From positions 1-33,407 of IMG/VR virus record IMGVR_UViG_3300007516_000072: DNA of 33,407 nt; one strand, 5' to 3'. The position numbers and the translations under genes were made by a program. Positions 7,203 through 33,407 of the stretch are shown piece by piece. Numbering within the stretch: the first letter of the stretch is position 1; each line of letters starts with the position of its first letter. The stretch is from a virus. The notes below the pieces were generated by a model. It did no database searches, was not told the DNA's origin, and saw only the letters and a list, made by a program, of their open reading frames with translations.

Positions 7203-7751
7203 ATGGGTGAATTTCAGTTTGTTCAATGGGGAGAGGGCGTTCCTGTTGACTATCAGCGGCTGAACGCAATGATGCTAAATGAGCAGCATTTGAAGGACTT
7301 GGTTGAGCCGTTACCTAGGGGTATTATTATGCACAAGACAATCGAAATTTTCTCTATTGACCCTAACGGCGGCCCCCAAAATATTACTGGCCTTGTAAAT
7401 TTAAATTTCACGACGGAACCGGGAAGACTGACATCGTTTGAGTTCCACCCTGGGATCATTGCACCTGACGTAGCGAATGGATTCGAAATTAGATATAAAA
7501 TTACAGTCACCGAGGCTGGAGGAAGCATCGTTGCGTCACCAGAAAATGGAGCTGCAGTAGTTAACGATTTCAGCAACCCCGGCGTTCCTCTTGTCTGGAT
7601 GTACCCCGAGGCACTTCCTGCTGGTACGCATAATGTGTCTGTCAATTTAGTCGCTAACGTCTCGTTCAATAGTATAACTGTGGGTAGGGATTTGTCACGA
7701 GTCCTCTTAATTGTGCGAGACGAAGGTGCCTACGTCTCCCCTCACACATGA
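7203..7751 (+). CDS. probable virion structural protein, beta-rich
   Basis: 182 residues with a good ribosome site (AAAAGGAG, 7188-7195) ahead of the ATG. The N-terminus (GEFQFVQWGEGVPVDYQRLN) resembles the start of small tail-fibre or tail-associated proteins, which often begin by naming a position on the tail. The remainder looks like a single beta-sandwich, with many alternating Val, Ile and Thr residues and no Cys. It lies directly after the giant tail protein and before an HNH gene, so I place it in the tail module. The stop overlaps the ATG of the HNH gene (ATGA). Its precise function is not recognised. Confidence 0.55.
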   Translation: MGEFQFVQWGEGVPVDYQRLNAMMLNEQHLKDLVEPLPRGIIMHKTIEIFSIDPNGGPQNITGLVNLNFTTEPGRLTSFEFHPGIIAPDVANGFEIRYKITVTEAGGSIVASPENGAAVVNDFSNPGVPLVWMYPEALPAGTHNVSVNLVANVSFNSITVGRDLSRVLLIVRDEGAYVSPHT

Positions 7752-8200
7752 GTTTAGCTTCTAGAAGGAATAGCGTCTCTTGGTTGGGAGCTAGGGAAGG
7801 TCTACAGAATCCAAATTTCAATGGTGGTCGATACATAGACGATAAAGGATACATCCGAATCCTTACCCCAAAACATCCTTCTAATAATAGCGGATATGTT
7901 TATGAGCACAGGCTTGTTGCTGAAAAACACTTGGGGCGCTTCCTTCAACAATGGGAGACGATCCACCACATCAACGAACTAAAACTGGATAATCGTTGGT
8001 CTAATTTTTATTTAACTACAGGCCCTGAACATACCACTTTGCATCGCGAGGGGAAAAAGCAAAGTAAAGAAAATAGAAAAAGCCAGAGTGAGCGTGGGAA
8101 ACAGCGAGCAAGAACTGGTAAGCGAATAAACGGCAAATTCGTAAAAATGTCCGAAAATTCTGCTATAATGGGGGACGACGAATTGGAGAATATTCCTTGA
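7748..8200 (+). CDS. HNH homing endonuclease
   Basis: 150 residues. The core around residues 30-100 fits the HNH family common in phages: GYIRILTPKHP, then YEHRLVAEKHLGR, then the metal-site region TIHHINELKLDNRWSNF, followed by LTTGPEHTTLHREG. The tandem His (HH) and the Asn of 'LDNRWSN' match the H-N pattern of the beta-beta-alpha metal fold. The C-terminal 50 residues are very basic (KKQSKENRKSQSERGKQRARTGKR) and probably bind DNA. Such enzymes nick or cut DNA and spread their own gene. The gene is free-standing between a tail gene and the metallophosphoesterase, overlapping both neighbours by 4 bases, so it does not look like an intron-borne copy. The promoter of the next gene lies within its 3' end. 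Confidence 0.85.
   Translation: MSLASRRNSVSWLGAREGLQNPNFNGGRYIDDKGYIRILTPKHPSNNSGYVYEHRLVAEKHLGRFLQQWETIHHINELKLDNRWSNFYLTTGPEHTTLHREGKKQSKENRKSQSERGKQRARTGKRINGKFVKMSENSAIMGDDELENIP
8161..8169 (+). promoter_or_regulatory. extended -10 promoter element (TGC-TATAAT)
   Basis: TGCTATAAT lies inside the last codons of the HNH gene, 27 bases ahead of the TTG start of the metallophosphoesterase. There is no clear -35. It matches the other TGN-TATAAT elements of the window, but its position in coding sequence makes chance more likely than for the intergenic copies. Confidence 0.38.
8185..8199 (+). promoter_or_regulatory. ribosome binding site fixing a TTG start
   Basis: GGAG at 8185-8188 lies eight bases before TTG at 8197-8199, which overlaps the HNH stop (TTGA). 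This spacing supports TTG as the start of the metallophosphoesterase. No ATG is available nearby in that frame. Confidence 0.6.
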
Positions 8201-10428
8201 AACACTTCAAAAGTAAGCACGACGAATCACTTAACCTCCCAAATCTTGGTGGAGAAGAGCATATTCCTCCGAGGCGAGAAAAAGAAATCAAGCCTCCCGC
8301 CACTTTAAAGCCAGGGGTGGAATGGGATGGTGATGAAGTTATTGTCACATCAGAGGTCTACAACGAGCCTGTAAAGGACTGGGATGAGCTCCTAAACGAA
8401 CTAGGGTACGATTCAGACCTTTATGAAATTGTTGAGCCAGTTAAAGTATCTTGCTGGGATGCTCCTGCCGGTGAAGGCTCGACTAAGAGGCTTTACTCTT
8501 ACAAGGCCGGGATCAGGGCTAAGCGTTTCACTCAGTATCGTGATGACGATTATAGCGATCTTGTTACGCTAATTAGAAAGCATCGCCCACTTTCGGATAG
8601 GCTTCTTGATGGGGACGCAACTTTTGTTGTCTGCCTATCAGACTGGCAATTAGGCAAGGCTCTAAGGGATGATACCCCAATTCTCACCACTAAGGGCTGG
8701 AAGCCTCACGGCGAATTGGGCATTGGAGACTACGTATACTCCCCAAACGGAGCCCCCGTTGCGGTTGTTGGGAATACCGGGTCATCCGTTCAGGATATCT
8801 ACAAGGTAACGTGGGATGACGGGGAAGAGATCGAGGCGACTGCTAACCACCAATGGGACGGTTATAGGCGCTTCAATCGAAAAGGAAAGTACGATCGTTA
8901 TGAGGTATCTATGACGACAAGGGAACTTTTCGAGATTAATAAATTCGGCACAAATGCAAGTTACGCAAGACCATTCCATATAAAAAACACTAGCCCACTA
9001 GAGGTAAGCCCTCAGGAGCTCCCCGTCGATCCATATCTATTCGGGGCATGGTTGGGTGACGGAAGTAGCTACAGCGGAAGAATAACTTCTGCAGGAAGCG
9101 ATTCAAGCTACTGGCTTAATCTATTTGATTGCCACACTGTAAAAAATGGAGCAAACAGAGGAGAGATGGTAGAGATTCGAATTGACGGACTCACGTCCAA
9201 ACTCAACAAGATGGGAGTCTTGGGCAGCAAGTCCATCCCAAAAGAATACTTAGATGGGTCTATTGACCAGCGTTTGAGTTTGGTGCAGGGTCTTATGGAC
9301 ACAGATGGTTATTGTAGTGAAGATGGTTCGGCTGAGTTTTGTCAAGTGAACAATAACATTGCCGATGGTATGGAATTTCTGCTGAATTCACTCGGTATGA
9401 AAGTAAAGAGGAGGGTGAAGCAAACTACGCATCAGCCAGCCAACATATTGCAGTTTACTCCTAACAGAGAACTTCCTTGGCAGCGCGTATTTAGAATGCA
9501 GAGAAAACTGGACAGGTTGCGCTATGGTGAAGGCCAGTGGACTTATTCCTATATTCGCAATGTCGAGAAGATGGAAAGGGCCAGCGCCCAATGCATCACA
9601 GTCGAAGGCGGGCTGTATCTCGCAGGGGTGAGTCTGAAGGCTACCCACAACTCCGATGGGGACGGCACAGAGGGAACAATTAAGAGAATTTTGGTTATGA
9701 TTGATGAAGTGACTGATCGCATTCGCGAACTTCGAAAGTCTGGCCGGAAGATGAAAACTTTAGTCGTTGCCGGGATTGGGGACATGGTGGAAAACTGCGC
9801 TGGTCATTATGCTTCGCAAACTTTCACGGTGGAACTTAATCGCCGCCAACAGATCCGTGTTCTTCGTCGCCTGTTGACTAAGGCTATCACTACTTGGTCT
9901 AAGTTGTTTAGTGAAGTGATTGTCATCGCTGTGCCAGGAAATCATGGTGAAAATCGCAATGCCGCAGGCAAGGCGTTCACGACTCGTGGAGACAATGATG
10001 ACGTTTCTGTTTTCGAGATGGTTGCTGAAATATTGTCAGCAAATCCCGATGCTTACGGCCACGTTCGTTTTATTTTGCCGGAAGACGAAATTTCCATCAC
10101 TATCGAAGTGAGTGGATTCATTCTCGGCTTTGCTCACGGACACGTTACGAGTAGCGGCGCAGATCCCCAAAAGAAGATCAAGGAGTGGTGGAAGAATCAG
10201 AAGTTCACCAATAATCCCATTGGCGACGCAAATATTCTCATTACTGGCCATTATCACCACTTTTCCGTCATCGAGCATGATAATGACAAGATTCACATGC
10301 AGTGTCCAGCGATGGATGGCGGATCAGAGTGGTTCAACGACCTTACTGGTGTAGACTCTAGACCGGGCACTCTGACGTTTCTCCTTGACTCGTCGGACAA
10401 GCCTTATCGTGATTTAGAAATTATTTAA
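8197..10428 (+). CDS. calcineurin-like metallophosphoesterase interrupted by an intein
   Basis: The precursor has 743 residues. Removing the intein (residues 155-485) leaves a 412-residue metallophosphoesterase. All motifs of this two-metal phosphatase/nuclease superfamily are present in the exteins: D149 in LSDWQLGK, D529 in GIGDMVEN, GNHGE at 581-585, the GFAHGHV segment, and GHYHHF around residues 684-689 with H685, H687 and H688. The spliced junction reads LGK-SDGDGTEG. The intein therefore splits the first metal-binding region, and the precursor should be inactive until splicing. Many actinophages encode such an enzyme near the lysis or tail genes. The substrate is unknown; nuclease or phosphodiesterase activity are the main options. 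The start is TTG at 8197 with GGAG upstream. The next gene is a holin-like protein 20 bases downstream. Confidence 0.9.
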   Translation: MKHFKSKHDESLNLPNLGGEEHIPPRREKEIKPPATLKPGVEWDGDEVIVTSEVYNEPVKDWDELLNELGYDSDLYEIVEPVKVSCWDAPAGEGSTKRLYSYKAGIRAKRFTQYRDDDYSDLVTLIRKHRPLSDRLLDGDATFVVCLSDWQLGKALRDDTPILTTKGWKPHGELGIGDYVYSPNGAPVAVVGNTGSSVQDIYKVTWDDGEEIEATANHQWDGYRRFNRKGKYDRYEVSMTTRELFEINKFGTNASYARPFHIKNTSPLEVSPQELPVDPYLFGAWLGDGSSYSGRITSAGSDSSYWLNLFDCHTVKNGANRGEMVEIRIDGLTSKLNKMGVLGSKSIPKEYLDGSIDQRLSLVQGLMDTDGYCSEDGSAEFCQVNNNIADGMEFLLNSLGMKVKRRVKQTTHQPANILQFTPNRELPWQRVFRMQRKLDRLRYGEGQWTYSYIRNVEKMERASAQCITVEGGLYLAGVSLKATHNSDGDGTEGTIKRILVMIDEVTDRIRELRKSGRKMKTLVVAGIGDMVENCAGHYASQTFTVELNRRQQIRVLRRLLTKAITTWSKLFSEVIVIAVPGNHGENRNAAGKAFTTRGDNDDVSVFEMVAEILSANPDAYGHVRFILPEDEISITIEVSGFILGFAHGHVTSSGADPQKKIKEWWKNQKFTNNPIGDANILITGHYHHFSVIEHDNDKIHMQCPAMDGGSEWFNDLTGVDSRPGTLTFLLDSSDKPYRDLEII
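8659..9651 (+). mobile_element. class 3-type intein in metallophosphoesterase, with LAGLIDADG endonuclease
   Basis: 331 residues (155-485 of the precursor), from A155 just after LGK to N485 before S486. Block A is ALRDDTPILTTKGW: the first residue is Ala, so there is no N-terminal nucleophile. The Trp-Cys-Thr signature of class 3 inteins is visible: W220 in block B (ATANHQW), C466 in block F (AQCITVEGG), and T483 before H484-N485 in block G (KATHN). In class 3 inteins the block F Cys begins splicing. The central part has both endonuclease helices (LFGAWLGDGS and LVQGLMDTDG) with both acidic residues kept, so homing activity looks intact. The flanking extein joins cleanly when it is removed. 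Confidence 0.88.
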
Positions 10429-10821: not shown

Positions 10822-11256
10822 ATGATTACTATTGAGCGTTTTGAGAGAAAGGTTGATAAGGCTGGTGACTGCTGGCTGTGGATCGCATATATTCGCAGAG
10901 ACGGGTACGGGTATTTCTGGGTTGACGGGAAGATGGTATATTCCCACCGTTTTGCTTATGAGCATTACGTCGGGCCAATTCCGGCAGGCTTACAACTAGA
11001 CCATCTGTGCCGGGTGAGGAATTGCGTGCGTCCAAGCCACTTGGAGCCTGTAACTCAACAGGAAAACGTAAGACGCGGTGAGGTAGGGAAGGCGAGTGGC
11101 GCTCTACAACTGGCAAAAACCCATTGCCCACATGGTCACCCCTATGACGAAATCAACACGTATTACTGTCCAAACGGAAGGCGCCAATGCCGAACCTGCC
11201 ATGCCGAACGTGAGCGCCAACGGCAAGCAAAGAGCCGGAAGAAGGCAGTTGCGTGA
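10822..11256 (+). CDS. HNH homing endonuclease (paralog of the one at 27241)
   Basis: 144 residues. The N-terminal half has CWLWIAYIRRDGYGYFWVDG and SHRFAYEHYVGPIP, then the HNH core LQLDHLCRVRNCVRPSHLEP with the Asp-His, the Asn and the final His in place. The C-terminal half has KTHCPHGHPYDEINTYYCPN and CRTCHAERERQRQ, a Cys/His pattern that probably holds a structural zinc. This is a common free-standing HNH type in actinophages. The ATG at 10822 has AAGGAT upstream (10807-10812). It starts a new transcription block just after a terminator. Its stop overlaps the GTG of a small zinc-ribbon protein. It closely resembles the HNH protein at 27241-27714 across its whole length. Confidence 0.9.
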   Translation: MITIERFERKVDKAGDCWLWIAYIRRDGYGYFWVDGKMVYSHRFAYEHYVGPIPAGLQLDHLCRVRNCVRPSHLEPVTQQENVRRGEVGKASGALQLAKTHCPHGHPYDEINTYYCPNGRRQCRTCHAERERQRQAKSRKKAVA

Positions 11257-12659: not shown

Positions 12660-14886
12660 GTTGAATCTCATCAACAGCATTGTGAGTACGGGAGATATTG
12701 AGTCATGTATCGATCAGGGGGTCGAACATGTTTTTGCTGAGTACGCTGACGTTTGGAGTTTCATTCTCCAGTTCAATAGCGAGTACGGTCAGATTCCTTC
12801 AAAAGATGTGATCAAAACTAATTTTAAGAGTTTTGAATTTTATAATGCCGACTCTCCTATCCAGTTTTATATTGATGATGCCAAGAGGCAGAGTCTTGGT
12901 CGTGGTGTGCGCACAACATTGTTTAAGGCTTCTGAGTCTTTGAAGGGCGGGGATGATCCCGCTAAGATTTTGACTTTGATCCAAAGCGATTCAGCTAAAC
13001 TCATGCGAGATTCGGGGAGATTGAAGGATTCTAATATTGCTGACTATTCTGAGCGTGTTGAGATCCTCAGGGATCGTATTGAGAATCCTGATAATAAGAT
13101 TGTTGGCGTTCCTAGCGGCATTAAGGTTATCGACGTTCACTTTGGGGGCTTTCAACCTGGGGATTTCGTTGTGGTTATTGGGTGGACAGGAACGGGAAAA
13201 ATGGTTACGCCTGCCACACCGATCCCCACTCCTGACGGGTGGCGTAAGGCTGGAGATATCAGTCCGGGCGATAAGATATTTGGTCGTTCTGGTGCCCCAA
13301 TTACGGTAACCCACATTTGGCCTTGGAGTGATCTGAGCATGTATAAGATCGTATTCAATGACGGAAGTGAGATTGAGGTAGGAGAGGATCATATTTGGAC
13401 TCTCCTTTCTGCAAATAATCGTTATAGGGGCTTGTCGGAGAATTTCATAAACAAGACAACCGGAGAGCTGTTTAGCGAGGGGGTCCGTTTTGGAGCTAGG
13501 AATACTGGGAACTCCAAGTCTCAGTATAAGTATTACCTTCCAGCTACTGGCCCTGTTGAGTATCCGAAGGTGGATCTTCCGATAGATCCTTATACCCTTG
13601 GAGCACTATTGGGCGACGGATATCTCTCAAGAAGAAGGGTAGAGCTTTCCGGCAATGATAACTTTATCCAAGATAAGGTTCAGGGGGCTAACCCTCATAA
13701 AAAGTTTCGTTTCTATACCAAGACTGATAATCACTGCGCCTGTACCAATTACGGAGTTTCCTTCAGGGAGGATCTGACATCGCTTGGGTTAATCAATCAT
13801 AAGTCGAGGGATAAATTCATTCCAGATTCATACCTCATTTCCGATATAGATAGTCGGAAGGCGCTTCTTGCTGGTCTGTTGGATACTGACGGCAGCGCTA
13901 CACCTAGAGAAAGAGCAAAATACTCATCGTACTCGGCCAAGTTGGCCGAAGGCGTCAAGGAATTGGTATTGTCACTTGGCGGCGTCGCTTCGGTAAAAGG
14001 GAATGTCAGAGGAGATGGTACCGAGTACACTGTTAGTGTATGGACCCCATTCAATCCGTTCACTCTCCCCCGGAAGGTGGAACTTTATTCCCCGACGTAT
14101 GAGTGGTTTAGGGCAATTGAAAGCATTGAAAGAATAGACGACGGGGACGGAGTCTGCTTCACCGTAGACGCCCCTGATCATCTGTATATGGCCGGAGATT
14201 ACATTGTCACTCACAACTCCTCGCTTACTCGCCTCATGGCGGCTAACGCTTGGCGTGCTGGGCATGTTCCTCTAATTATTTCTTTGGAGATGGATCGGAT
14301 TCAGGAAGAGTTCCGTATGGACACTATTTTGAATGCGGGAAGAGTGTTTACTAACACTCAACTCACTAACGGTAAAGGCTTGGACTTAGATGAGTATACG
14401 GGCTGGGCTGAGGATATGTTCGACGGGAAGCATCCCATGCATCTTGTGACTTCTGACGGGATAGAGACAGCAGATCAACATTTTGTTCAGTCTAAAATTG
14501 AGCAGTATAAGCCAGATCTTGTCATTCTCGATTACCACACTCTGTTCGATGATTCGAGCGGGGGAAGGTCGGAGACTGAGCGTGCTAAGAATCTTTCTAA
14601 GGCGTTCAAGCGTATGGCTGTGCGCAATCGTGTTCCCATCATTGACGTTTCAGGTGTTACGATGGACGACGGTCACGATGAGCGTCCTCCAGAACTCAAT
14701 GAGATTGCTTGGTCTAAGCAACTTTCGTATGATGCCGACATGGTGTTGAGTTTGCATCGCCCAGAGGGTAGTGATATTTTTCAAGTTGTAACTAAAAAGA
14801 CAAGGCGTTGCGCTCCATTTGCGTTTTATTTAAGATGGAACCTAGACTCAGGAGAGTGGAGAGAGATATATGAATACCAAATTTAA
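12649..14886 (+). CDS. dnaB: DnaB-like replicative helicase interrupted by an intein
   Basis: The precursor has 745 residues; without the intein (185-523) it has 406. The N-terminal domain (about 1-140) is a small helical primase-interacting region. The C-terminal RecA-like ATPase begins around GVPSGIKVIDVHFGGFQPGD, as in DnaB and gp4-type helicases. Walker A is GWTGTGK-SSL, split after K184 by the intein. Walker B is DLVILDYHTLF, and a late SGVT/WSKQLSYDADMVLSLHRP segment matches the DnaB C-terminal motifs. The enzyme unwinds the fork as a hexamer. Splitting the ATP loop makes the precursor inactive. It overlaps the next small gene (ATG at 14870) by 17 bases and lies just ahead of the primase. 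Confidence 0.93.
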   Translation: MNYELNLINSIVSTGDIESCIDQGVEHVFAEYADVWSFILQFNSEYGQIPSKDVIKTNFKSFEFYNADSPIQFYIDDAKRQSLGRGVRTTLFKASESLKGGDDPAKILTLIQSDSAKLMRDSGRLKDSNIADYSERVEILRDRIENPDNKIVGVPSGIKVIDVHFGGFQPGDFVVVIGWTGTGKMVTPATPIPTPDGWRKAGDISPGDKIFGRSGAPITVTHIWPWSDLSMYKIVFNDGSEIEVGEDHIWTLLSANNRYRGLSENFINKTTGELFSEGVRFGARNTGNSKSQYKYYLPATGPVEYPKVDLPIDPYTLGALLGDGYLSRRRVELSGNDNFIQDKVQGANPHKKFRFYTKTDNHCACTNYGVSFREDLTSLGLINHKSRDKFIPDSYLISDIDSRKALLAGLLDTDGSATPRERAKYSSYSAKLAEGVKELVLSLGGVASVKGNVRGDGTEYTVSVWTPFNPFTLPRKVELYSPTYEWFRAIESIERIDDGDGVCFTVDAPDHLYMAGDYIVTHNSSLTRLMAANAWRAGHVPLIISLEMDRIQEEFRMDTILNAGRVFTNTQLTNGKGLDLDEYTGWAEDMFDGKHPMHLVTSDGIETADQHFVQSKIEQYKPDLVILDYHTLFDDSSGGRSETERAKNLSKAFKRMAVRNRVPIIDVSGVTMDDGHDERPPELNEIAWSKQLSYDADMVLSLHRPEGSDIFQVVTKKTRRCAPFAFYLRWNLDSGEWREIYEYQI
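13201..14217 (+). mobile_element. class 3-type intein in DnaB Walker A, with LAGLIDADG endonuclease
   Basis: 339 residues (185-523). It begins MVTPATPIPTPDGW directly after GTGK and ends DYIVTHN before S524, restoring GTGKSS. The first residue is Met, so no standard nucleophile is present. The class 3 signature is W250 (EDHIW), C503 (GVCFTV) and T521 before H522-N523. The endonuclease motifs TLGALLGDGY and ALLAGLLDTDGS keep both acidic residues. Phage DnaB class 3 inteins at this ATP-loop site are known, with mycobacteriophage Bethlehem as the type example, so the site is shared with that family. The C-terminal part (NPFTLPRK) resembles that of the RecA intein in this same genome. Confidence 0.93.
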
Positions 14887-21890: not shown

Positions 21891-23848
21891 TCAAAGGTGG
21901 GGAGAAGCTCCCTAAGGCCGAATCGCTAAAGACACCCAGCTTTGGGTTGAACTATATTCTTGGTGGAGGTTTGTGGTCTGGCCGTTACCATATAATCTGG
22001 GGAAATCCACAAGCGGGAAAGGCGCTGGCGAGTTGGGAAAAAGTGTTGACGCCAACTGGCTGGGAGGAGATTTCCGACCTTGTCGTAGGAGACTATGTTA
22101 TCGGTTCCGATGGAAACCCCACAAGAGTGCTCGGGGTATTCCCCCAAGGTTTTAGAGATCTATACACCGTCACGTTTTCTGATGGGGCGAAGGTAGTTTG
22201 CGACGAAGAGCATTTGTGGACATTTAGGACATCGGAAGATGTCCATGGAGGGAAAACTTGGTGGAGAACTGACTCGCTCAAGAATATAGTCGGATATCAG
22301 AAGAGAAGTAATGGAGTGCAAGTTGAAACCGACTGGTGTCACATCCCCATAGCAGAGCCTGCCAAAACTTTCTTAGCCGATCTTCCAATTGACCCTTATA
22401 CATTAGGGGTGCTTCTGGGAAATGGGTCATTTAGAACTGGATCGATAAGGTTTTCAACTGATGATGACTTTATACTTAAAAATCTAGACACTAAGGACCT
22501 GCGCGTTACTAAGGTGAGCGACTTTGACTACAGAATATCTGCAGAACGAGGTAGAGACAACTGGCTGCTAACCGAGTTGGAGAGCTTGGATCTATGGAGC
22601 GTCCACGGATTAGACAAGTCGATTCCCGCTGAATATATGTTCTCCGATCCAGATGATCGCTTGGAGATGCTACGGGGGCTGATGGATACAGATGGATACG
22701 TAGATAAAGGTGGGCGCTGCGAGTTCTCTTCCTCTAGTCCCCAGTTGATCACTGACGTTGTAGAACTGGTGCGATCGCTAGGAGGAGTTACGGGAAATAC
22801 CGGAGCGGGGATCAGGATGAAGAAAACAACCAATGCCGACCACTACAGAGTGACAGTGACGCTTCCTGTGAATCCATTTAGGCTTCCAAGAAAGGCCGAC
22901 CGGTGGAGTGCCAAGCCTGTTGGCAGGACGATCAGGAGTATTGACTACTACGGAAGAGGTCATGCGACGTGTATCAGGGTTGAGGCTGAGGACGGGCTTT
23001 TTGTAGCAAATGACTACGTAGTGACGCATAACACCACGCTGGCCTTCCATGCTGCCGCCGAGGCGCAGAAGCTTGGATATACGACTGTCGTTATTGACGC
23101 TGAAGGGTCTGCTACCGACGAGTGGATGGTCCAGTGCGGGATTGATATTGATGATCGTATTGTTATCCGTTCGACTATTCTTGAAGATATTCTGAATGTT
23201 ATTATGCCAATGTTTCGTGAAAAGGACTCTAAGTATTTCTTTGTTTTTGATTCGATCAATACTATCGTGATGGAACAGTTTTACAAGAATGATGATGGTA
23301 TGGGCGGTATTGGAATTTACGCTCGCTCTCAGGGCGTTCTTATCCAAAAGATTGCAGATCAACTTATTTCTGGCGTGAATCATGTGGTAGTTTTTATTGC
23401 GCAGCAAACTATTGCAGCGAAGGGTCAATTTTTTGTGACGCAAGGCAAGTATGGTAATGCTGCGTACCATTGGGCTACTAATATTATCCGCCTTCATGCC
23501 GGAGATGCCAGTGCCGATGTCGATCGTGACGATGATGAGCGGATTACTAGCCGCAAAGTTACTTGGCGTATTGACAAGTCGAAGCAGAGGTCTATTCAAG
23601 GCACTAAGGGTGACTACTGGTTTTCCCCGGAGAGTGCCACGATTGACTTGAAGCGTGAGGCTTTTCATATTGCTGTAAGGAACGGGATCATTACGAAGAA
23701 GGGTGCATGGTTCGAATGGGACGGAAAGAGTTATCATGGAGCCGACAAACTCATTAGCGCGCTGTCCGAGGGAGATATGAGTAATATTTTATCTCAACTT
23801 GAGCAGGCCGAACTGTCGTTCGACAGCGACGCAGAGGGCAGCGAATAA
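21881..23848 (+). CDS. recA: RecA/UvsX-like recombinase interrupted by an intein
   Basis: The precursor has 655 residues; without the intein (48-384) it has 318. The N-terminus is short (SFGLNYILGGGLWSGRYHII), then Walker A GNPQAGK-TTL, split after K47. VVIDAEGSATDEWMVQCGID matches the RecA 'ID.E...d...a...Gvd' region. Walker B is YFFVFDSINTIV, and VVVFIAQQT follows as the L2-side motif. The acidic C-terminus (SFDSDAEGSE) is typical of RecA proteins. It pairs homologous DNA strands in recombination-dependent replication and repair. The gene overlaps the polymerase and is followed two bases later by a resolvase-like gene, forming a recombination cluster. Confidence 0.9.
   Translation: MLVVKGGEKLPKAESLKTPSFGLNYILGGGLWSGRYHIIWGNPQAGKALASWEKVLTPTGWEEISDLVVGDYVIGSDGNPTRVLGVFPQGFRDLYTVTFSDGAKVVCDEEHLWTFRTSEDVHGGKTWWRTDSLKNIVGYQKRSNGVQVETDWCHIPIAEPAKTFLADLPIDPYTLGVLLGNGSFRTGSIRFSTDDDFILKNLDTKDLRVTKVSDFDYRISAERGRDNWLLTELESLDLWSVHGLDKSIPAEYMFSDPDDRLEMLRGLMDTDGYVDKGGRCEFSSSSPQLITDVVELVRSLGGVTGNTGAGIRMKKTTNADHYRVTVTLPVNPFRLPRKADRWSAKPVGRTIRSIDYYGRGHATCIRVEAEDGLFVANDYVVTHNTTLAFHAAAEAQKLGYTTVVIDAEGSATDEWMVQCGIDIDDRIVIRSTILEDILNVIMPMFREKDSKYFFVFDSINTIVMEQFYKNDDGMGGIGIYARSQGVLIQKIADQLISGVNHVVVFIAQQTIAAKGQFFVTQGKYGNAAYHWATNIIRLHAGDASADVDRDDDERITSRKVTWRIDKSKQRSIQGTKGDYWFSPESATIDLKREAFHIAVRNGIITKKGAWFEWDGKSYHGADKLISALSEGDMSNILSQLEQAELSFDSDAEGSE
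22022..23032 (+). mobile_element. class 3-type intein in RecA Walker A, with damaged LAGLIDADG motif
   Basis: 337 residues (48-384). It begins ALASWEKVLTPTGW after QAGK and ends NDYVVTHN before T385, restoring GKTT. The first residue is Ala. The class 3 signature is W113 (EEHLW), C364 (ATCIRVEA) and T382 before H383-N384. The first endonuclease helix reads TLGVLLGNGS, with Asn where the metal-binding Asp is expected, while the second, MLRGLMDTDGY, is normal. Splicing residues are intact, so the element may splice but have lost cutting activity. It shares NPF-x-LPRK and the overall C-terminal pattern with the DnaB intein, suggesting a common ancestor. Confidence 0.92.
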
Positions 23849-24373: not shown

Positions 24374-24744
24374 TGGAAATAGCGAGAACGCGTGAAATGA
24401 GTGAAGGTAATGTGGAGGTCGGACTCGATGAGATTGCCGCAGTGCTAGGTCGTGAGGAGTACGACGAATTCAATGCCTGCATGGCTATTGTCCAGAAGAT
24501 TCTGGACTCTCCATCTGCCATGATGGGCAGTGAGGCCTTGGTTGCTGCAGCGAAGCTGGCTGCGCTAAGAACGAAGATTGGAGCCAGGGCACAATATTAC
24601 AAGACGAGCGACAAGTCGATTATCCAAAGGCGTAGGAAGGACATTTTAATGCTGATGTATGATGCGCTTCAAGAGGTGATAAATACCATGAAACTGCTTG
24701 GCCGCATGGAGCACAGTTCAAGCCAGACAGGATATCGCACTTGA
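24373..24744 (+). CDS. helical protein whose 3' end was altered by HNH gene insertion
   Basis: 123 residues with GGAGG ahead of the ATG. The body is helical and charged (EEYDEFNACMAIVQKIL, ALVAAAKLAALRTKIGARAQ), with no recognised motif. The C-terminus INTMKLLGRMEHSSSQTGYRT is probably not the original one. A divergent copy of its last part (INTMKLLGRIEGSMGHGVR) occurs 715 bases downstream at the end of the HNH gene. Joining the two copies would give the original tail, whose stop codon overlaps the ATG of the nuclease gene at 25450. The gene thus looks partly recoded by an inserted homing endonuclease gene. The role of the protein is unknown; context suggests DNA metabolism. Confidence 0.6.
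   Translation: MEIARTREMSEGNVEVGLDEIAAVLGREEYDEFNACMAIVQKILDSPSAMMGSEALVAAAKLAALRTKIGARAQYYKTSDKSIIQRRRKDILMLMYDALQEVINTMKLLGRMEHSSSQTGYRT
24682..24701 (+). repeat. direct repeat, upstream copy, flanking the HNH insertion
   Basis: AATACCATGAAACTGCTTGG matches 25397-25416 at 19 of 20 positions; the one change is G/T in a third codon position. It marks the left border of the inserted HNH segment. Similarity continues more weakly at the protein level. Confidence 0.8.
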
Positions 24745-24775
24745 AAAGTATGGATACTTATGGCAATATAGATAC

Positions 24776-25453
24776 ATGAAGAAAAAATGCTCAATTGAAG
24801 ACTGCAACGGTCAAACAAAATCACTAGAACTTTGTAGTAAGCACTACCAGCGACTTAGAAAAACAGGAAATCCCCGGCTATCTAAGATGAACAGAGACCA
24901 TGACGGTATATGCTCGCTAGGAGGATGTGATAAGAAATACTGGGCCAAGGGATTCTGTAAGATGCACTATAGTCGATGGCGAGCGCATGGAGACCCAGAG
25001 AAGACAATGTTCGGAAATCACGACGGAGTGTGTGTTATCATAGGGTGCTCAAATGTAAGACACTCCAGGGGATTCTGCACAAAGCATTATGGGAGATGGT
25101 ATCAGCATGGAGACCCAGATAAAATAGTTGACAAATCTAATCCAGATGGAAGGCCTACTGTAGATGGATATAGGACAATATGCAAAAATGGCATTTCGAA
25201 AATGGAACATAGATGGGTTATGGAAGATTATATCGGTAGGGAATTGATCAAACACGAAAACGTCCATCACCTCAATGGTGACAAACTAGACAACAGAATC
25301 GAGAACTTGGAATTATGGAGCACAAAGCAACCAAGAGGTCAGAGAGTGACTGACAAAGTAGAGTGGGCTAAAGAAATCTTAGACATCTACGATATCAATA
25401 CCATGAAACTTCTTGGGAGAATTGAAGGTTCTATGGGGCATGGTGTACGATGA
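24776..25453 (+). CDS. HNH homing endonuclease with three zinc-finger repeats
   Basis: The frame is open from 24698, but the ATG at 24776 (MKKKCSIEDCN) fits the conserved part best; upstream residues overlap the previous gene and show no homology. The protein has 225 residues. Three repeats of C-x4-C-x9/10-C-x2-H (CSIEDC...CSKH, CSLGGC...CKMH, CVIIGC...CTKH), each ending in GNP or GDP, form an N-terminal zinc-finger array. The HNH core follows: EHRWVMEDYIGREL, then HENVHHLNGDKLDNRIENL and LELWS. The last ~20 residues are a copy of the end of the upstream phage gene, fused in frame to the HNH protein. No Shine-Dalgarno sequence is visible ahead of 24776. Confidence 0.87.
   Translation: MKKKCSIEDCNGQTKSLELCSKHYQRLRKTGNPRLSKMNRDHDGICSLGGCDKKYWAKGFCKMHYSRWRAHGDPEKTMFGNHDGVCVIIGCSNVRHSRGFCTKHYGRWYQHGDPDKIVDKSNPDGRPTVDGYRTICKNGISKMEHRWVMEDYIGRELIKHENVHHLNGDKLDNRIENLELWSTKQPRGQRVTDKVEWAKEILDIYDINTMKLLGRIEGSMGHGVR
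25397..25416 (+). repeat. direct repeat, downstream copy, flanking the HNH insertion
   Basis: AATACCATGAAACTTCTTGG matches 24682-24701 at 19 of 20 bases. It lies in the 3' end of the HNH gene and leads into the stop codon that overlaps the start of the Cas4-like gene. It probably represents the original 3' end of the interrupted gene. Confidence 0.8.
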
Positions 25454-29439: not shown

Positions 29440-29740
29440 TTTTCCAAGAAAAGCGACAATCGCTTGGATAACTTTGGGTTTATTTATCCTCATTTACGAC
29501 GTAATAGCCATGTCCCTGAATGATTATCACAAATCCAAAGGTAGCGGGATAGTGCACGAGACACTCTCTGACGCCTGTTGGCGTGGAATCAATCATCCTA
29601 CAGTAAGATGGCCTATCTGGTTATCTACAGCAGCCATCGTCAAGCATCTTGCTTTTCCGAATTTTTTGAAAAAGTATGATCCAATAAGTTTGGTGGGTAC
29701 AATTATAAAGCGGGTCAGTAGGTCTCGTTCAGATGGCTGA
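29432..29740 (+). CDS. small membrane protein encoded beside the terminase
   Basis: 102 residues from TTG at 29432, with AAGGAGAAG upstream and an 8-base overlap with the previous gene. There is a transmembrane segment at about 8-29 (ATIAWITLGLFILIYDVIAM) and a weaker hydrophobic stretch near 61-76 (WPIWLSTAAIVKHLAF). LSDACWRGINHPTVRWP lies between them. Small membrane proteins with a similar 'DA...HP..R......l.HL' pattern are found near actinophage terminase genes; function is unknown. It overlaps the large terminase start by 8 bases. Confidence 0.58.
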   Translation: MNNFPRKATIAWITLGLFILIYDVIAMSLNDYHKSKGSGIVHETLSDACWRGINHPTVRWPIWLSTAAIVKHLAFPNFLKKYDPISLVGTIIKRVSRSRSDG

Positions 29741-32700
29741 CGACTTCTTTGGTACGAACTTAGACTTCAGCGATTTTGATCGCCTCCTAAAGAATGAGGA
29801 TCTAATCGAAGAGCCTATTCCTATTGAAAAATTTGTAACTGATAAGCATTATCTCGGGCTTCCCCCTCTTGGTGATCTTCAATATGAGGCATCTAAGATG
29901 ATTACTCAAATTTTCAAGCCTGAAACTCTAATACAACTTCATGGTGAGGAAAAAGGTTTAGAGTTATATAAGCATTATACGGTAAATGAAGTCATTTGCC
30001 AATGGGGAAAAGGTTGTTCGACAAAAACGGCTAAAGTTTATTCCCCAGAATTGGGTTACAAAACAGTTGAGAGCTTAACCTTGCAGCCGAATACTTACAA
30101 AGTTGTATCTCATAGTGGAAAGGCGAGAGAAGCGACCCCTTTTGCCAAAATGGGTAGTGGCAGAGCTATCCGAATTACCACGAAGAAGGGCTTTTATATA
30201 GAGGTTTTTGAAAAACACAGGATGCTTGGGTCTCCAGGGTCGAACGAGAAGTCTATGGATTGGCTTCGCAAAGGTGTTGGCGGCAGAAAAATTGACTGGT
30301 GTTATGCCGATGAACTTTCAGTTGGGGATGTAGTTCCTTTAAAGATTGGACTTCCTGAACCAACTATCCCTCTGAACGTGACAGATGACGAAGCGAGATT
30401 TATTGGATACATGCTAGGAGATGGGTCGCTTCCTAACTTTAATCACATTCCACGATTCACTAATGCAACTCCCGAAGTTCAAGAAGACTTTAAGAGAATA
30501 GTCATTGACCACTTTGGAGACATGATTAGGGTCGATAAGAGCGGCTATGGATGTGACAGGTTCTCGGTATCAAATACAGACGGAAGAAACTCAACGATGC
30601 TCTTCCTTAGGTCGGTTGGGATGGAATACGAGGTCGAGAGGCCTAAGCCTTGGAATGATGATTTCATGCGCCTTTCCGACTCCGCTGCCGCGAATCTTCT
30701 CAATGGACTGTGGGCCACAGATGGATGGATCAATATTGACAAGAGCGGATCAGGTGTCTCATATACCATATGTATAGATCTGACATCAGAGGCAGTCATT
30801 CGGGGAGTTCACGATCTCCTTATGAGGCTTGGTATTGTTTCAAAATTCAAGTTGCAAAAACCTAAGCGAAGTAGCGGAAAGCATAAACCTGTCTATGGCA
30901 TCTCAATTTCATCTCTAGAGAATTGCCAGAAATTCTTAAACCTTGTTGGAAAAATTCCGGGCAAAGAAGACGTGAGCAATGAGATTCTATCCGCCACTCA
31001 AATCGAAAAAAGGTCGTGTTTAGATGAGAACGGGTGGTATTGGGATCGTATCGCTTCAGTTGAAGATCTCGGTGTACAAGATTACTACGACTGTGCTGTA
31101 GATGAAGACAATTCGTATGTAGCGAATGGATTTATCAATCACAATTCCGGTAAGGATCATGTGTCAAGGGTCTCTCTTGCTTACGTCGCGTATCTCCTTC
31201 ATTGTCTTAGAGATCCTCTTGACTATTTCGGTAAAGCCCCTGGCGTGTATATCGATATTGTTAACCTCGCTGTAAACGCTAAGCAAGCGCAGCAGGTTTT
31301 CTTTGACCCTCTAAAGAATCTTCTTCTCTCTAGCCCTTGGGCTAGTGAGGTTGGGTTCGAGCCTCGTGTGTCAGAAATTTTTTGGTTTAGTCGTCCTGTG
31401 AGAATGTTCTCCGGTCACTCTGAGGCTGAGGGGTGGGAAGGATATGAGGTTCTTGTCGTTGTCTTGGATGAGATTTCCGCTTTCAAGATTGACAGCGAGT
31501 TGAAAGGGCAGTTTAGAAATAAGGGGGCTGCGTCTGAGATTTACGACATGGCTAGAGCATCTATTACTTCTAGATTCCCAACTGTCGGAAAAGTTGTTCT
31601 CCTTTCCTTTCCCCGGTTTAAGGGAGACTTCATTCAGCAAAGATATAAGTCTGTCCTTGATGACCTCATTGCGCATGGAGGAGTTGTCCTTGATGAGACA
31701 GAAGGAAACAAGGGGCTGTATCGTGAGGCCACTACGTGGGCTATGAAGGCTGCGACATGGGAAGTAAATCCTACTCGTCATCGTGAAGAGTTTGAGAATG
31801 AATTCCGTCGTGATCCGATCATGTCGCGAGCTCGATTTATGTGCGAGCCTCCCGAAATGGTTGATGCTTACTTCCGTGATCCAGAAACTGTTAGAGCGGC
31901 ATTTAAGTTTAAAGAAGACCCTATGGACGAAAGTGGCCAATATAAAAACTGGTTCCTTGGTTCAAGTTCTCACTCAAGATATATCCATATCGACCTTGGC
32001 TTAAAGAGAGATCGTGCCGCTCTTTGTATGGTTCACTCTCCAGGTTTCAAGCAGATTAAAACTCTGGGGGGTGTCGAGAATCTTCCCATTGTTGAGATGG
32101 ATTACATCCAAAGCTGGAAGGCCGAAGACAATTCCGAGATCCCTTTCGCTTCTATTCGTTCTGCTATTGTTGACCTTTCTAGAAGGTTTCCTGTCGTTTC
32201 GGTCACCTTCGACCAATGGAATTGCGTGACGAAAGACACTATGGTATTTACTGAGTGTGGCATCAAAACTGTCGATCAAATATTCGATACAAGCCCTGAC
32301 CTCCTTGCCGACTCTATTTCTAGCAACAAGTTCGGCTCCATAAAGGACAGTGGCGTTGCGGAGGTATTAAAGCTCACGACAAAACTTGGCTACACTATAG
32401 AAACGACAGGGAATCATAAAATCCTGACTAGTTATGGGTGGAAGTTCATGGATCAGATTTCCGTAGGTGACAAGGTCCTCATTAAGCAACCATGCTTGTG
32501 GCCATCAACTGATGTTGTAGATGTTGACGAGGCAATCGCGTTGGGATACATGGTAAGCGAAGGCAATTTTTACGACAAAAGGTATAATTCGCTAGTTCGT
32601 ATAACTTCAATTGATGAAGATATGCTCGACATCAACAAGGAAGCGATGTTCCACATAGCGGATGACTGGACTTACAGCAGGTCAGTAAGATGGGAAGAAA

Positions 32701-33407
32701 CCGACAAGTCGAATAAGGCTTGGGAAGATAGGTTCTACTCAAAGAAGGGTCTTGATCGACTTAAGAAATTGGGATGGATCGGGGGGTCTTTCAATGAGAA
32801 AGTTCCTTGGAGCGTCCTTGCTTCGACAAAAGAGACTCAAAGATCTTTTCTGACAGCCCTTTTCGATGGGGACGGTTGTATATCAGGAAGGATAACCCGA
32901 ACTGGAAATTCAGTTCAGGTGTCTTATGAATGCAGAAGCAAGACGCTATGCGAGCAGATCAGGATGATGTTGTTGAATTTCGGAATAGTGTCTTCTTGGT
33001 ACGAATATGAGCACTGTGGCTCAATGAGATATCGCATTACTATTGGGGGACAAAAGGCAAAGAAGTTTATGAAGGAAATCGGATTCATCTCAGCAAGGAA
33101 GTCGAAGAAGGCATGGTCGTTAGTTGATGGACTTGCAGACTCTCTTCACAAGGACCGATATGACTTCAATGAGCTCGGACGCTTATGGATCTCCGTTAGC
33201 AGCATCGAGAGAAGCGGAGAGAAGCAGGTGTACGATATATCCATGCCAGGCAATGAAACATTCTTGGCTAACGGAATCGTGGTCCATAATTCCGCGGACA
33301 TGATCCAGTCCCTGAGGGCTTTGGGGATTAATGCCGATCTTCACACCGTTGCGAAGAAGGACTATGATACACTGTCAACTTCGATCTACGATGGAAGGTT
33401 TCGAGGG
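29733..33407 (+). CDS. terL: terminase large subunit interrupted by two inteins (3' end outside window)
   Basis: The frame is open from ATG at 29733 to the right edge: 1225 codons, of which 492 are extein. Spliced exteins read QWGKG-SGKD (Walker A, split by intein 1) and DQWN-SADMIQSL (nuclease motif, split by intein 2). Walker B with catalytic Glu is VLVVVLDEISAF (D579, E580). LLSFPRFKGDFIQQRY fits the ATPase coupling motif. IHIDLGLKRDRAALCMVH and VTFDQWN supply the first nuclease acids. The protein cuts and pumps phage DNA into capsids. Both its ATPase and its nuclease would be inactive before splicing. The C-terminus and stop lie beyond the window. Confidence 0.94.
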   Translation, partial: MADDFFGTNLDFSDFDRLLKNEDLIEEPIPIEKFVTDKHYLGLPPLGDLQYEASKMITQIFKPETLIQLHGEEKGLELYKHYTVNEVICQWGKGCSTKTAKVYSPELGYKTVESLTLQPNTYKVVSHSGKAREATPFAKMGSGRAIRITTKKGFYIEVFEKHRMLGSPGSNEKSMDWLRKGVGGRKIDWCYADELSVGDVVPLKIGLPEPTIPLNVTDDEARFIGYMLGDGSLPNFNHIPRFTNATPEVQEDFKRIVIDHFGDMIRVDKSGYGCDRFSVSNTDGRNSTMLFLRSVGMEYEVERPKPWNDDFMRLSDSAAANLLNGLWATDGWINIDKSGSGVSYTICIDLTSEAVIRGVHDLLMRLGIVSKFKLQKPKRSSGKHKPVYGISISSLENCQKFLNLVGKIPGKEDVSNEILSATQIEKRSCLDENGWYWDRIASVEDLGVQDYYDCAVDEDNSYVANGFINHNSGKDHVSRVSLAYVAYLLHCLRDPLDYFGKAPGVYIDIVNLAVNAKQAQQVFFDPLKNLLLSSPWASEVGFEPRVSEIFWFSRPVRMFSGHSEAEGWEGYEVLVVVLDEISAFKIDSELKGQFRNKGAASEIYDMARASITSRFPTVGKVVLLSFPRFKGDFIQQRYKSVLDDLIAHGGVVLDETEGNKGLYREATTWAMKAATWEVNPTRHREEFENEFRRDPIMSRARFMCEPPEMVDAYFRDPETVRAAFKFKEDPMDESGQYKNWFLGSSSHSRYIHIDLGLKRDRAALCMVHSPGFKQIKTLGGVENLPIVEMDYIQSWKAEDNSEIPFASIRSAIVDLSRRFPVVSVTFDQWNCVTKDTMVFTECGIKTVDQIFDTSPDLLADSISSNKFGSIKDSGVAEVLKLTTKLGYTIETTGNHKILTSYGWKFMDQISVGDKVLIKQPCLWPSTDVVDVDEAIALGYMVSEGNFYDKRYNSLVRITSIDEDMLDINKEAMFHIADDWTYSRSVRWEETDKSNKAWEDRFYSKKGLDRLKKLGWIGGSFNEKVPWSVLASTKETQRSFLTALFDGDGCISGRITRTGNSVQVSYECRSKTLCEQIRMMLLNFGIVSSWYEYEHCGSMRYRITIGGQKAKKFMKEIGFISARKSKKAWSLVDGLADSLHKDRYDFNELGRLWISVSSIERSGEKQVYDISMPGNETFLANGIVVHNSADMIQSLRALGINADLHTVAKKDYDTLSTSIYDGRFRG
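30015..31145 (+). mobile_element. class 1-type intein in TerL Walker A, with LAGLIDADG endonuclease
   Basis: 377 residues (95-471 of the precursor). It starts with C95 (CSTKTAKVYSPELG) after WGKG and ends GFINHN before S472. Cys1, the His-Asn end and Ser+1 fit the standard splicing mechanism. Block B is odd: the region IEVFEKHRML keeps His but has Phe where Thr normally stands. Endonuclease helices are FIGYMLGDGS and LLNGLWATDGW, both with the metal-binding Asp. Block F is YDCAVDEDNSYVANGF. Confidence 0.92.
32223..33290 (+). mobile_element. class 1-type intein in TerL nuclease motif, with LAGLIDADG endonuclease
   Basis: 356 residues (831-1186). It starts with C831 (CVTKDTMVFTECG) after FDQWN and ends LANGIVVHN before S1187. 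Block B is the normal ETTGNHKIL with Thr and His. Block F is VYDISMPGNETFLANG. Endonuclease helices are ALGYMVSEGNF, with Glu instead of Asp, and FLTALFDGDGC. The Glu variant occurs in some active LAGLIDADG enzymes, so activity is open. Confidence 0.92.

Follow-up and report, generated by a model that had tools for sequence, protein, structure and literature searches.

The large terminase subunit (TerL) genes of mycobacteriophages carry class 1 and class 3 inteins at sites a to g, which have LAGLIDADG endonuclease domains and interrupt TerL motifs including Walker A; several of these inteins spliced and two cut DNA (PMC5050341). TerL genes holding two inteins have also been described. In Microcystis phage Mic1 the ATPase and nuclease domains of TerL carry one intein each (PMC7156551), and in the crAss-like genome OBYQ01000140 TerL is encoded in three in-frame pieces with two inteins (PMC7886860). 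Here we describe a TerL gene in the viral sequence IMGVR_UViG_3300007516_000072, whose whole record of 33,407 bases was analysed and is referred to as the window. The TerL open reading frame runs off the end of the record and is split by two inteins, one in the ATPase Walker A motif (intein 1, site 1) and one in nuclease motif II (intein 2, site 2). It very probably encodes a single TerL polypeptide with two class 1 inteins, separately arrived homing elements that would each excise themselves to restore Walker A and nuclease motif II, respectively. The features are as follows.

29733 to 33407, plus strand: TerL precursor open reading frame with two inteins inside, 1225 codons free of stops and running off the 3' end of the record.
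29733 to 30014, plus strand: N-extein, whose last residues (WGKG) form the first half of Walker A; 70–77% identical to the uninterrupted TerLs L001–L006 and L018.
30015 to 31145, plus strand: intein 1, 377 amino acids, with a class 1 signature and a LAGLIDADG endonuclease, in Walker A (WGKG/SGKD); assigned from profiles, the empty site in relatives and the predicted fold.
30207 to 30209, plus strand: Phe codon at intein 1 block B position 7 (B:7), normally Thr or Ser.
30399 to 30431, plus strand: first LAGLIDADG motif of intein 1, FIGYMLGDGSL.
30696 to 30731, plus strand: second LAGLIDADG motif of intein 1, LLNGLWATDGWI (PF14528).
31146 to 32222, plus strand: middle extein, with SGKD (Walker A), LVVVLDE (Walker B), HIDLG (nuclease motif I) and TFDQWN (nuclease motif II), from an alignment with 15 relatives.
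32223 to 33290, plus strand: intein 2, 356 amino acids, with a class 1 signature and a LAGLIDADG endonuclease, in nuclease motif II (TFDQWN/SAD); assigned from profiles, the empty site in relatives and the same site being filled in L186 and L217.
32400 to 32426, plus strand: intein 2 block B, ETTGNHKIL, a canonical TxxH.
33291 to 33407, plus strand: start of the C-extein, 39 amino acids, 92% identical to L001 over that length.

The gene is identified as TerL by tblastn matches of its exteins to annotated Streptomyces phage terminases (38–43% identity, best E = 2e-73) together with its conserved motifs, the extein having no terminase match in Pfam or NCBIfam and a weak one in PHROG. Removal of the inteins gives a TerL with a Walker A motif in which GKG is followed by SGKD, a Walker B VLDE, and the nuclease motifs HIDLG and TFDQWN. 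The key motif columns of the middle extein are invariant across the 15 aligned relatives, and Walker A ends in GKD in these relatives, so that an Asp after GK is normal for this TerL family. In L001–L006 and L018, which are 84–87% identical in the middle extein, both sites are gap-free, with LGKG joined directly to SGKD and TFDQWN to SADM; L007 agrees over the part that has been sequenced, and the more distant relatives L008–L013 are likewise uninterrupted at both sites. Both junctions are therefore exact to the residue, and the double-intein TerL is not a chance pattern.

Intein 1 begins CSTKTAKV and ends GFINHN before a Ser, between the flanks QWGKG and SGKDHVS, and intein 2 begins CVTKDTMV and ends GIVVHN, also before a Ser, between VTFDQWN and SADMIQ. 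Both are in frame, and each contains two LAGLIDADG motifs bearing acidic residues (GDG and TDG in intein 1, SEG and GDG in intein 2; PF14528). Pfam searches with the whole open reading frame return LAGLIDADG_3 (E = 1.6e-32) and Intein_splicing (E = 1.4e-23), in two stretches each. The predicted fold of intein 1 (predicted local distance difference test, pLDDT, 86.5; predicted template modeling score, pTM, 0.89) has VMA inteins as its top structural matches.

By definition, class 1 inteins begin with Cys, Ser or Thr (PMC5222942). Intein 1 has Cys1, whose position follows from the uninterrupted relatives, together with an Asp at F:4, a penultimate His, Asn377 and Ser+1; its block B is IEVFEKHRML, with Phe65 at B:7 and His68 at B:10. 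Intein 2 has Cys1 (in CVTK), TGNH in block B, a VVHN end and Ser+1. The initial annotation had described TerL as split in both active sites and the block B Thr of intein 1 as replaced by Phe; the coordinates and motif assignments that it gave agree to the residue with the boundaries fixed by the uninterrupted relatives, and it is indeed Phe65 that occupies B:7. A Thr at B:7 is a recognised helper of the first acyl shift (PMC4031507), and in published work the B:7 position varies more than B:10 among Prp8 inteins and holds Asn in Sce VMA1. Judged by its residues, intein 1 fits the class 1 definition even though it lacks this common assisting residue, which is not a defining one. According to one review, class 2 inteins are all KlbA orthologs with Ala1 and a Ser at G:6 that act via Cys+1 (PMC4031507); class 3 is marked by the WCT triplet, with Trp at B:12, Cys at F:4 and Thr at G:5. 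Both classes were considered for the TerL inteins and rejected: the two have Cys1, a His at G:6 and Ser+1, and neither has the triplet.

Splicing of each intein would proceed by an N–S acyl shift at Cys1, transfer of the N-extein to Ser+1, cyclisation of the Asn, and joining of the exteins, and would restore GKGSGKD and TFDQWNSAD in the ATPase and nuclease sites, respectively. Given where the inserts lie, an intact motor would require both to be spliced out, and only TerL from which both have been removed would be a working one. Each LAGLIDADG domain presumably makes its intein a homing element specific to the conserved site in which it lies; splicing, and cutting of DNA that lacks the intein, have been demonstrated for other TerL inteins (PMC5050341). 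We infer splicing and endonuclease activity from these features, as we do any order, rate or regulation of splicing considered below. Several points weigh against this reading: intein 1 lacks the block B Thr; the block F His is missing in both inteins, with Asn and Glu at the aligned position; the TerL C-terminus, including nuclease motif III, lies past the record end at 33407; and the sequence comes from a single assembly. A third intein may be present in nuclease motif III, beyond the end of the record.

Inserts recur in related TerL genes, and do so sparsely. Among 130 TerL loci, recruited by their exteins and not by inteins, there are two kinds of insert only, one in L157 at site 1 and a mini-intein in L015–L017, and site 2 is filled in none of the 130; interruption is rare in this TerL family. 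The mini-intein (L015:5554-5994, L016:5554-5994, and L017) has 147 amino acids and lies near Walker A, at GGGKDW/C..GN/TLRIAF. Neither intein, scanned singly against the viral collection, returned any relatives; relatives of the inteins emerged only from scans with alignments that included a second member. The L157 insert is 38% identical to intein 1 and occupies the same site, and a rescan with an alignment of the two found more inteins exactly at GKG/SGKD in L182/L183, L184, L185 and L186/L187. The TerL of L186 (4983-8900 of a 97-kb viral contig) has three inteins, at site 1, site 2 and nuclease motif III; its site 2, TFDRWN/C..HN/S, is exactly that of the window, and the motif III insert lies at DHPRKG/C..HN/SKDLSDA. 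L187, from a different metagenome, has the same three inteins. Sites 1 and 2 are also both filled in L217/L218, found by a scan with site-2 inteins.

The junctions match exactly across the window, L186/L187 and L217/L218, at GKG/SGKD and D(R/Q)W(N/H)/S. The arrangements differ in that L186 has the third intein and an Asn1 in the site-1 intein, whereas L217 has a 127-aa mini-intein at site 2 and a Tyr at B:7. Doubly split TerLs are thus found in three lineages here, beyond the published Mic1 and crAss-like cases, and the filling of both sites in L186/L187 and L217/L218 indicates that the arrangement is tolerated in separate lineages. We also note a TerL-like frame in L192 (644-1849), and another in L195, with an ordinary Cys1 and TxxH intein at the equivalent P-loop position, GRR/C..HN/SGKD.

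Five of the seven site-1 inteins, forming one clade, lack a Cys or Ser at position 1:

L157, 2178 to 3284: site-1 intein with Asn1.
L182, 4980 to 6071: site-1 intein with Thr1.
L184, 3888 to 4985: site-1 intein with Thr1.
L185, 729 to 1823: site-1 intein with Thr1.
L186, 4983 to 6092: site-1 intein with Asn1.

In these five, residue +1 is Ser and the signatures of class 2 (KlbA) and class 3 (WCT) are both absent; the penultimate His is missing in six of the seven, being kept only by intein 1 of the window. At B:7 the seven have F, Y, G, G, N, N and N, with no Thr or Ser (0/7), whereas Thr or Ser is present in 15 of the 15 other class 1 inteins tabulated; the Fisher value for this contrast, computed with four inteins read by eye included, is not taken as a probability because six of the seven site-1 inteins share ancestry. 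With no Thr or Ser at B:7 in any of them, the family probably passes the first acyl shift with the B:10 His and other features, perhaps in the active site or in the P-loop flanks, Gly(-1) and Ser(+1), and the shift may be slower. No specific residue compensating for Phe65 of intein 1 was identified. Position F:5, where the window and L182 have a Cys and L157 and L184–L186 a Thr, was considered as a nucleophile that might compensate at site 1 and rejected, since L217 has Arg there. Judged from sequence, the change in block B suggests that the inteins at this site form an unusual, site-specific family.

The TerLs with site-1 inteins have open frames and intact catalytic motifs. Synonymous divergence among these inteins is mostly saturated, and non-synonymous divergence (dN) and codon-position identities were used instead; the splicing domains of L184 and L185 share 64% of residues; identity is 74% over the first two codon positions and 43% over the third, with a dN of 0.31 and saturated synonymous divergence (dS). 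The site-1 splicing domains are under protein-level constraint. The Thr1 intein of L185 has a confident intein fold prediction (pLDDT 88.4, pTM 0.90; top match the TliVMA intein), and Asn1 is kept in two lineages that are 64% identical, one of which is seen identically in two metagenomes. Thr1 is accepted in class 1 by one paper (PMC5222942), so the inteins of L182, L184 and L185 may be class 1 in the wide sense; those with Asn1, as far as their residues tell, fit none of the intein classes. Tentatively, and with somewhat less than even confidence, we suggest that one lineage among the inteins at GKG/SGKD has given up the usual N-terminal chemistry; its Asn1 members, if they splice, would have to rely on Ser+1 attacking directly or on some other route not yet described, and the N-terminal nucleophile would then have been lost once more, independently. 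Intein 1 of the window would then be a Cys1-bearing sister that represents the state before the loss, and the suggestion concerns the relatives more than intein 1 itself.

The window contains three further inteins, all of class 3:

8659 to 9651: intein in an exonuclease-like gene, with the WCT triplet and Ala1.
13201 to 14217: intein in a DnaB-like helicase gene, in Walker A (GTGK/M..HN/S), with the WCT triplet and Met1.
22022 to 23032: intein in a RecA-like recombinase gene, in Walker A (AGK/A..HN/T), with the WCT triplet and Ala1.

These are mutually 29–33% identical and, with the two in TerL, bring the total to five inteins in four genes, drawn from two classes. None of the five sites is filled in the six closest relatives that have long records (L001–L004, L006 and L018, in records G001–G005 and G013), which reflects either five gains within a single lineage or repeated loss. 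With five inteins belonging to two mechanistic classes within 33 kb, and no intein at those sites in its closest relatives, the window phage is a good case of rapid intein accumulation. Free-standing HNH-endonuclease-like open reading frames at 7748-8200 and 10822-11256 (by eye) and at 24698-25453 (PHROG profiles) add to the window's load of homing-type genes. Record G011, which holds L016, has LAGLIDADG inserts at L057 and L059, one in a ribonucleotide-reductase-like frame (by eye) and one in a DnaB-like gene, the latter at a different site from the DnaB-like intein of the window. For comparison, crAss-like zeta phages are reported to have up to three inteins per genome, plus many introns (PMC7886860).

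The two inteins might act mainly as regulators, timed or conditional splicing leaving the packaging motor active only late in infection. Such a role has been proposed for the two-intein TerL of Mic1 (PMC7156551), both catalytic domains are gated here, and loss of the helper residue in intein 1 is expected to slow the first step; but homing alone explains the patchy presence of the inteins, the empty sites in near relatives and the intact endonuclease motifs, and we regard a mainly regulatory role as unlikely. Somewhat less likely still is a crippled intein 1, in which Phe65 would make splicing poor and leave little active TerL, the contig representing a defective or intein-overloaded lineage. 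The known help that a B:7 Thr gives to the first acyl shift (PMC4031507) speaks for such a defect, and five inteins in this phage against none at those sites in its six nearest relatives would be expected if the load were harmful. Yet the open reading frame is intact and the TerL motifs are conserved, intein 1 keeps Cys1, the B:10 His, the F:4 Asp, the terminal His-Asn and Ser+1, and all seven site-1 inteins persist without a B:7 Thr or Ser in open, motif-complete TerL frames.

The separate arrival of the two inteins is supported by a maximum-likelihood tree of 25 inteins, in which they group by site. Intein 1 joins five other site-1 inteins (support 99.9/100) and intein 2 joins the site-2 inteins of L186 and L217 with moderate support (67.8/78); the site-1 intein of L217 stands apart from the others and appears to represent a separate lineage occupying that site. 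That both are duplicates of one intein within TerL, later diverged, is very improbable: they do align over their full length (24% identical, E = 4e-18) and share size and domain order, but 24% is the ordinary background among inteins (others, mostly from TerL, are 20–26% identical to intein 1), intein 1 is closer to the site-1 inteins of other phages, at 38% with L157 and by its place in the tree, and intein 2 matches the L186 site-2 intein (28–30% identity, E = 1e-41) and groups with those at site 2. The initial annotation had held that the two differ clearly and probably arrived independently, and the low identity, with each grouping with own-site inteins of other phages, supports this.

Nuclease motif II is a second recurrent TerL intein site, the mycobacteriophage survey having had the ATPase domain only, and TerLs with two or three inteins recur across separate lineages. 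The site-1 family would provide natural intermediates between an ordinary class 1 intein and one with no N-terminal nucleophile, which makes loss of Cys1 with retained splicing directly testable on matched natural sequences.

Double-intein TerLs are already published, and it is the insertion sites that are new here. In Mic1 the ATPase-domain intein lies at TG/C..HN/TPKG and not in Walker A, the nuclease-domain intein is in motif III and not in motif II, and the second intein is a mini-intein (PMC7156551). OBYQ01000140, unlike the window, is a recoded crAss-like phage (PMC7886860), and the related crAss TerL cr53_1 has its intein at TGGDEG/C, which is neither of the window's sites. The seven mycobacteriophage sites are all in the ATPase domain (7/7) and none is in nuclease motif II (PMC5050341); site a lies between the Walker A Lys and Thr and site b one residue off, whereas intein 1 of the window is inserted after GKG and before SGKD.

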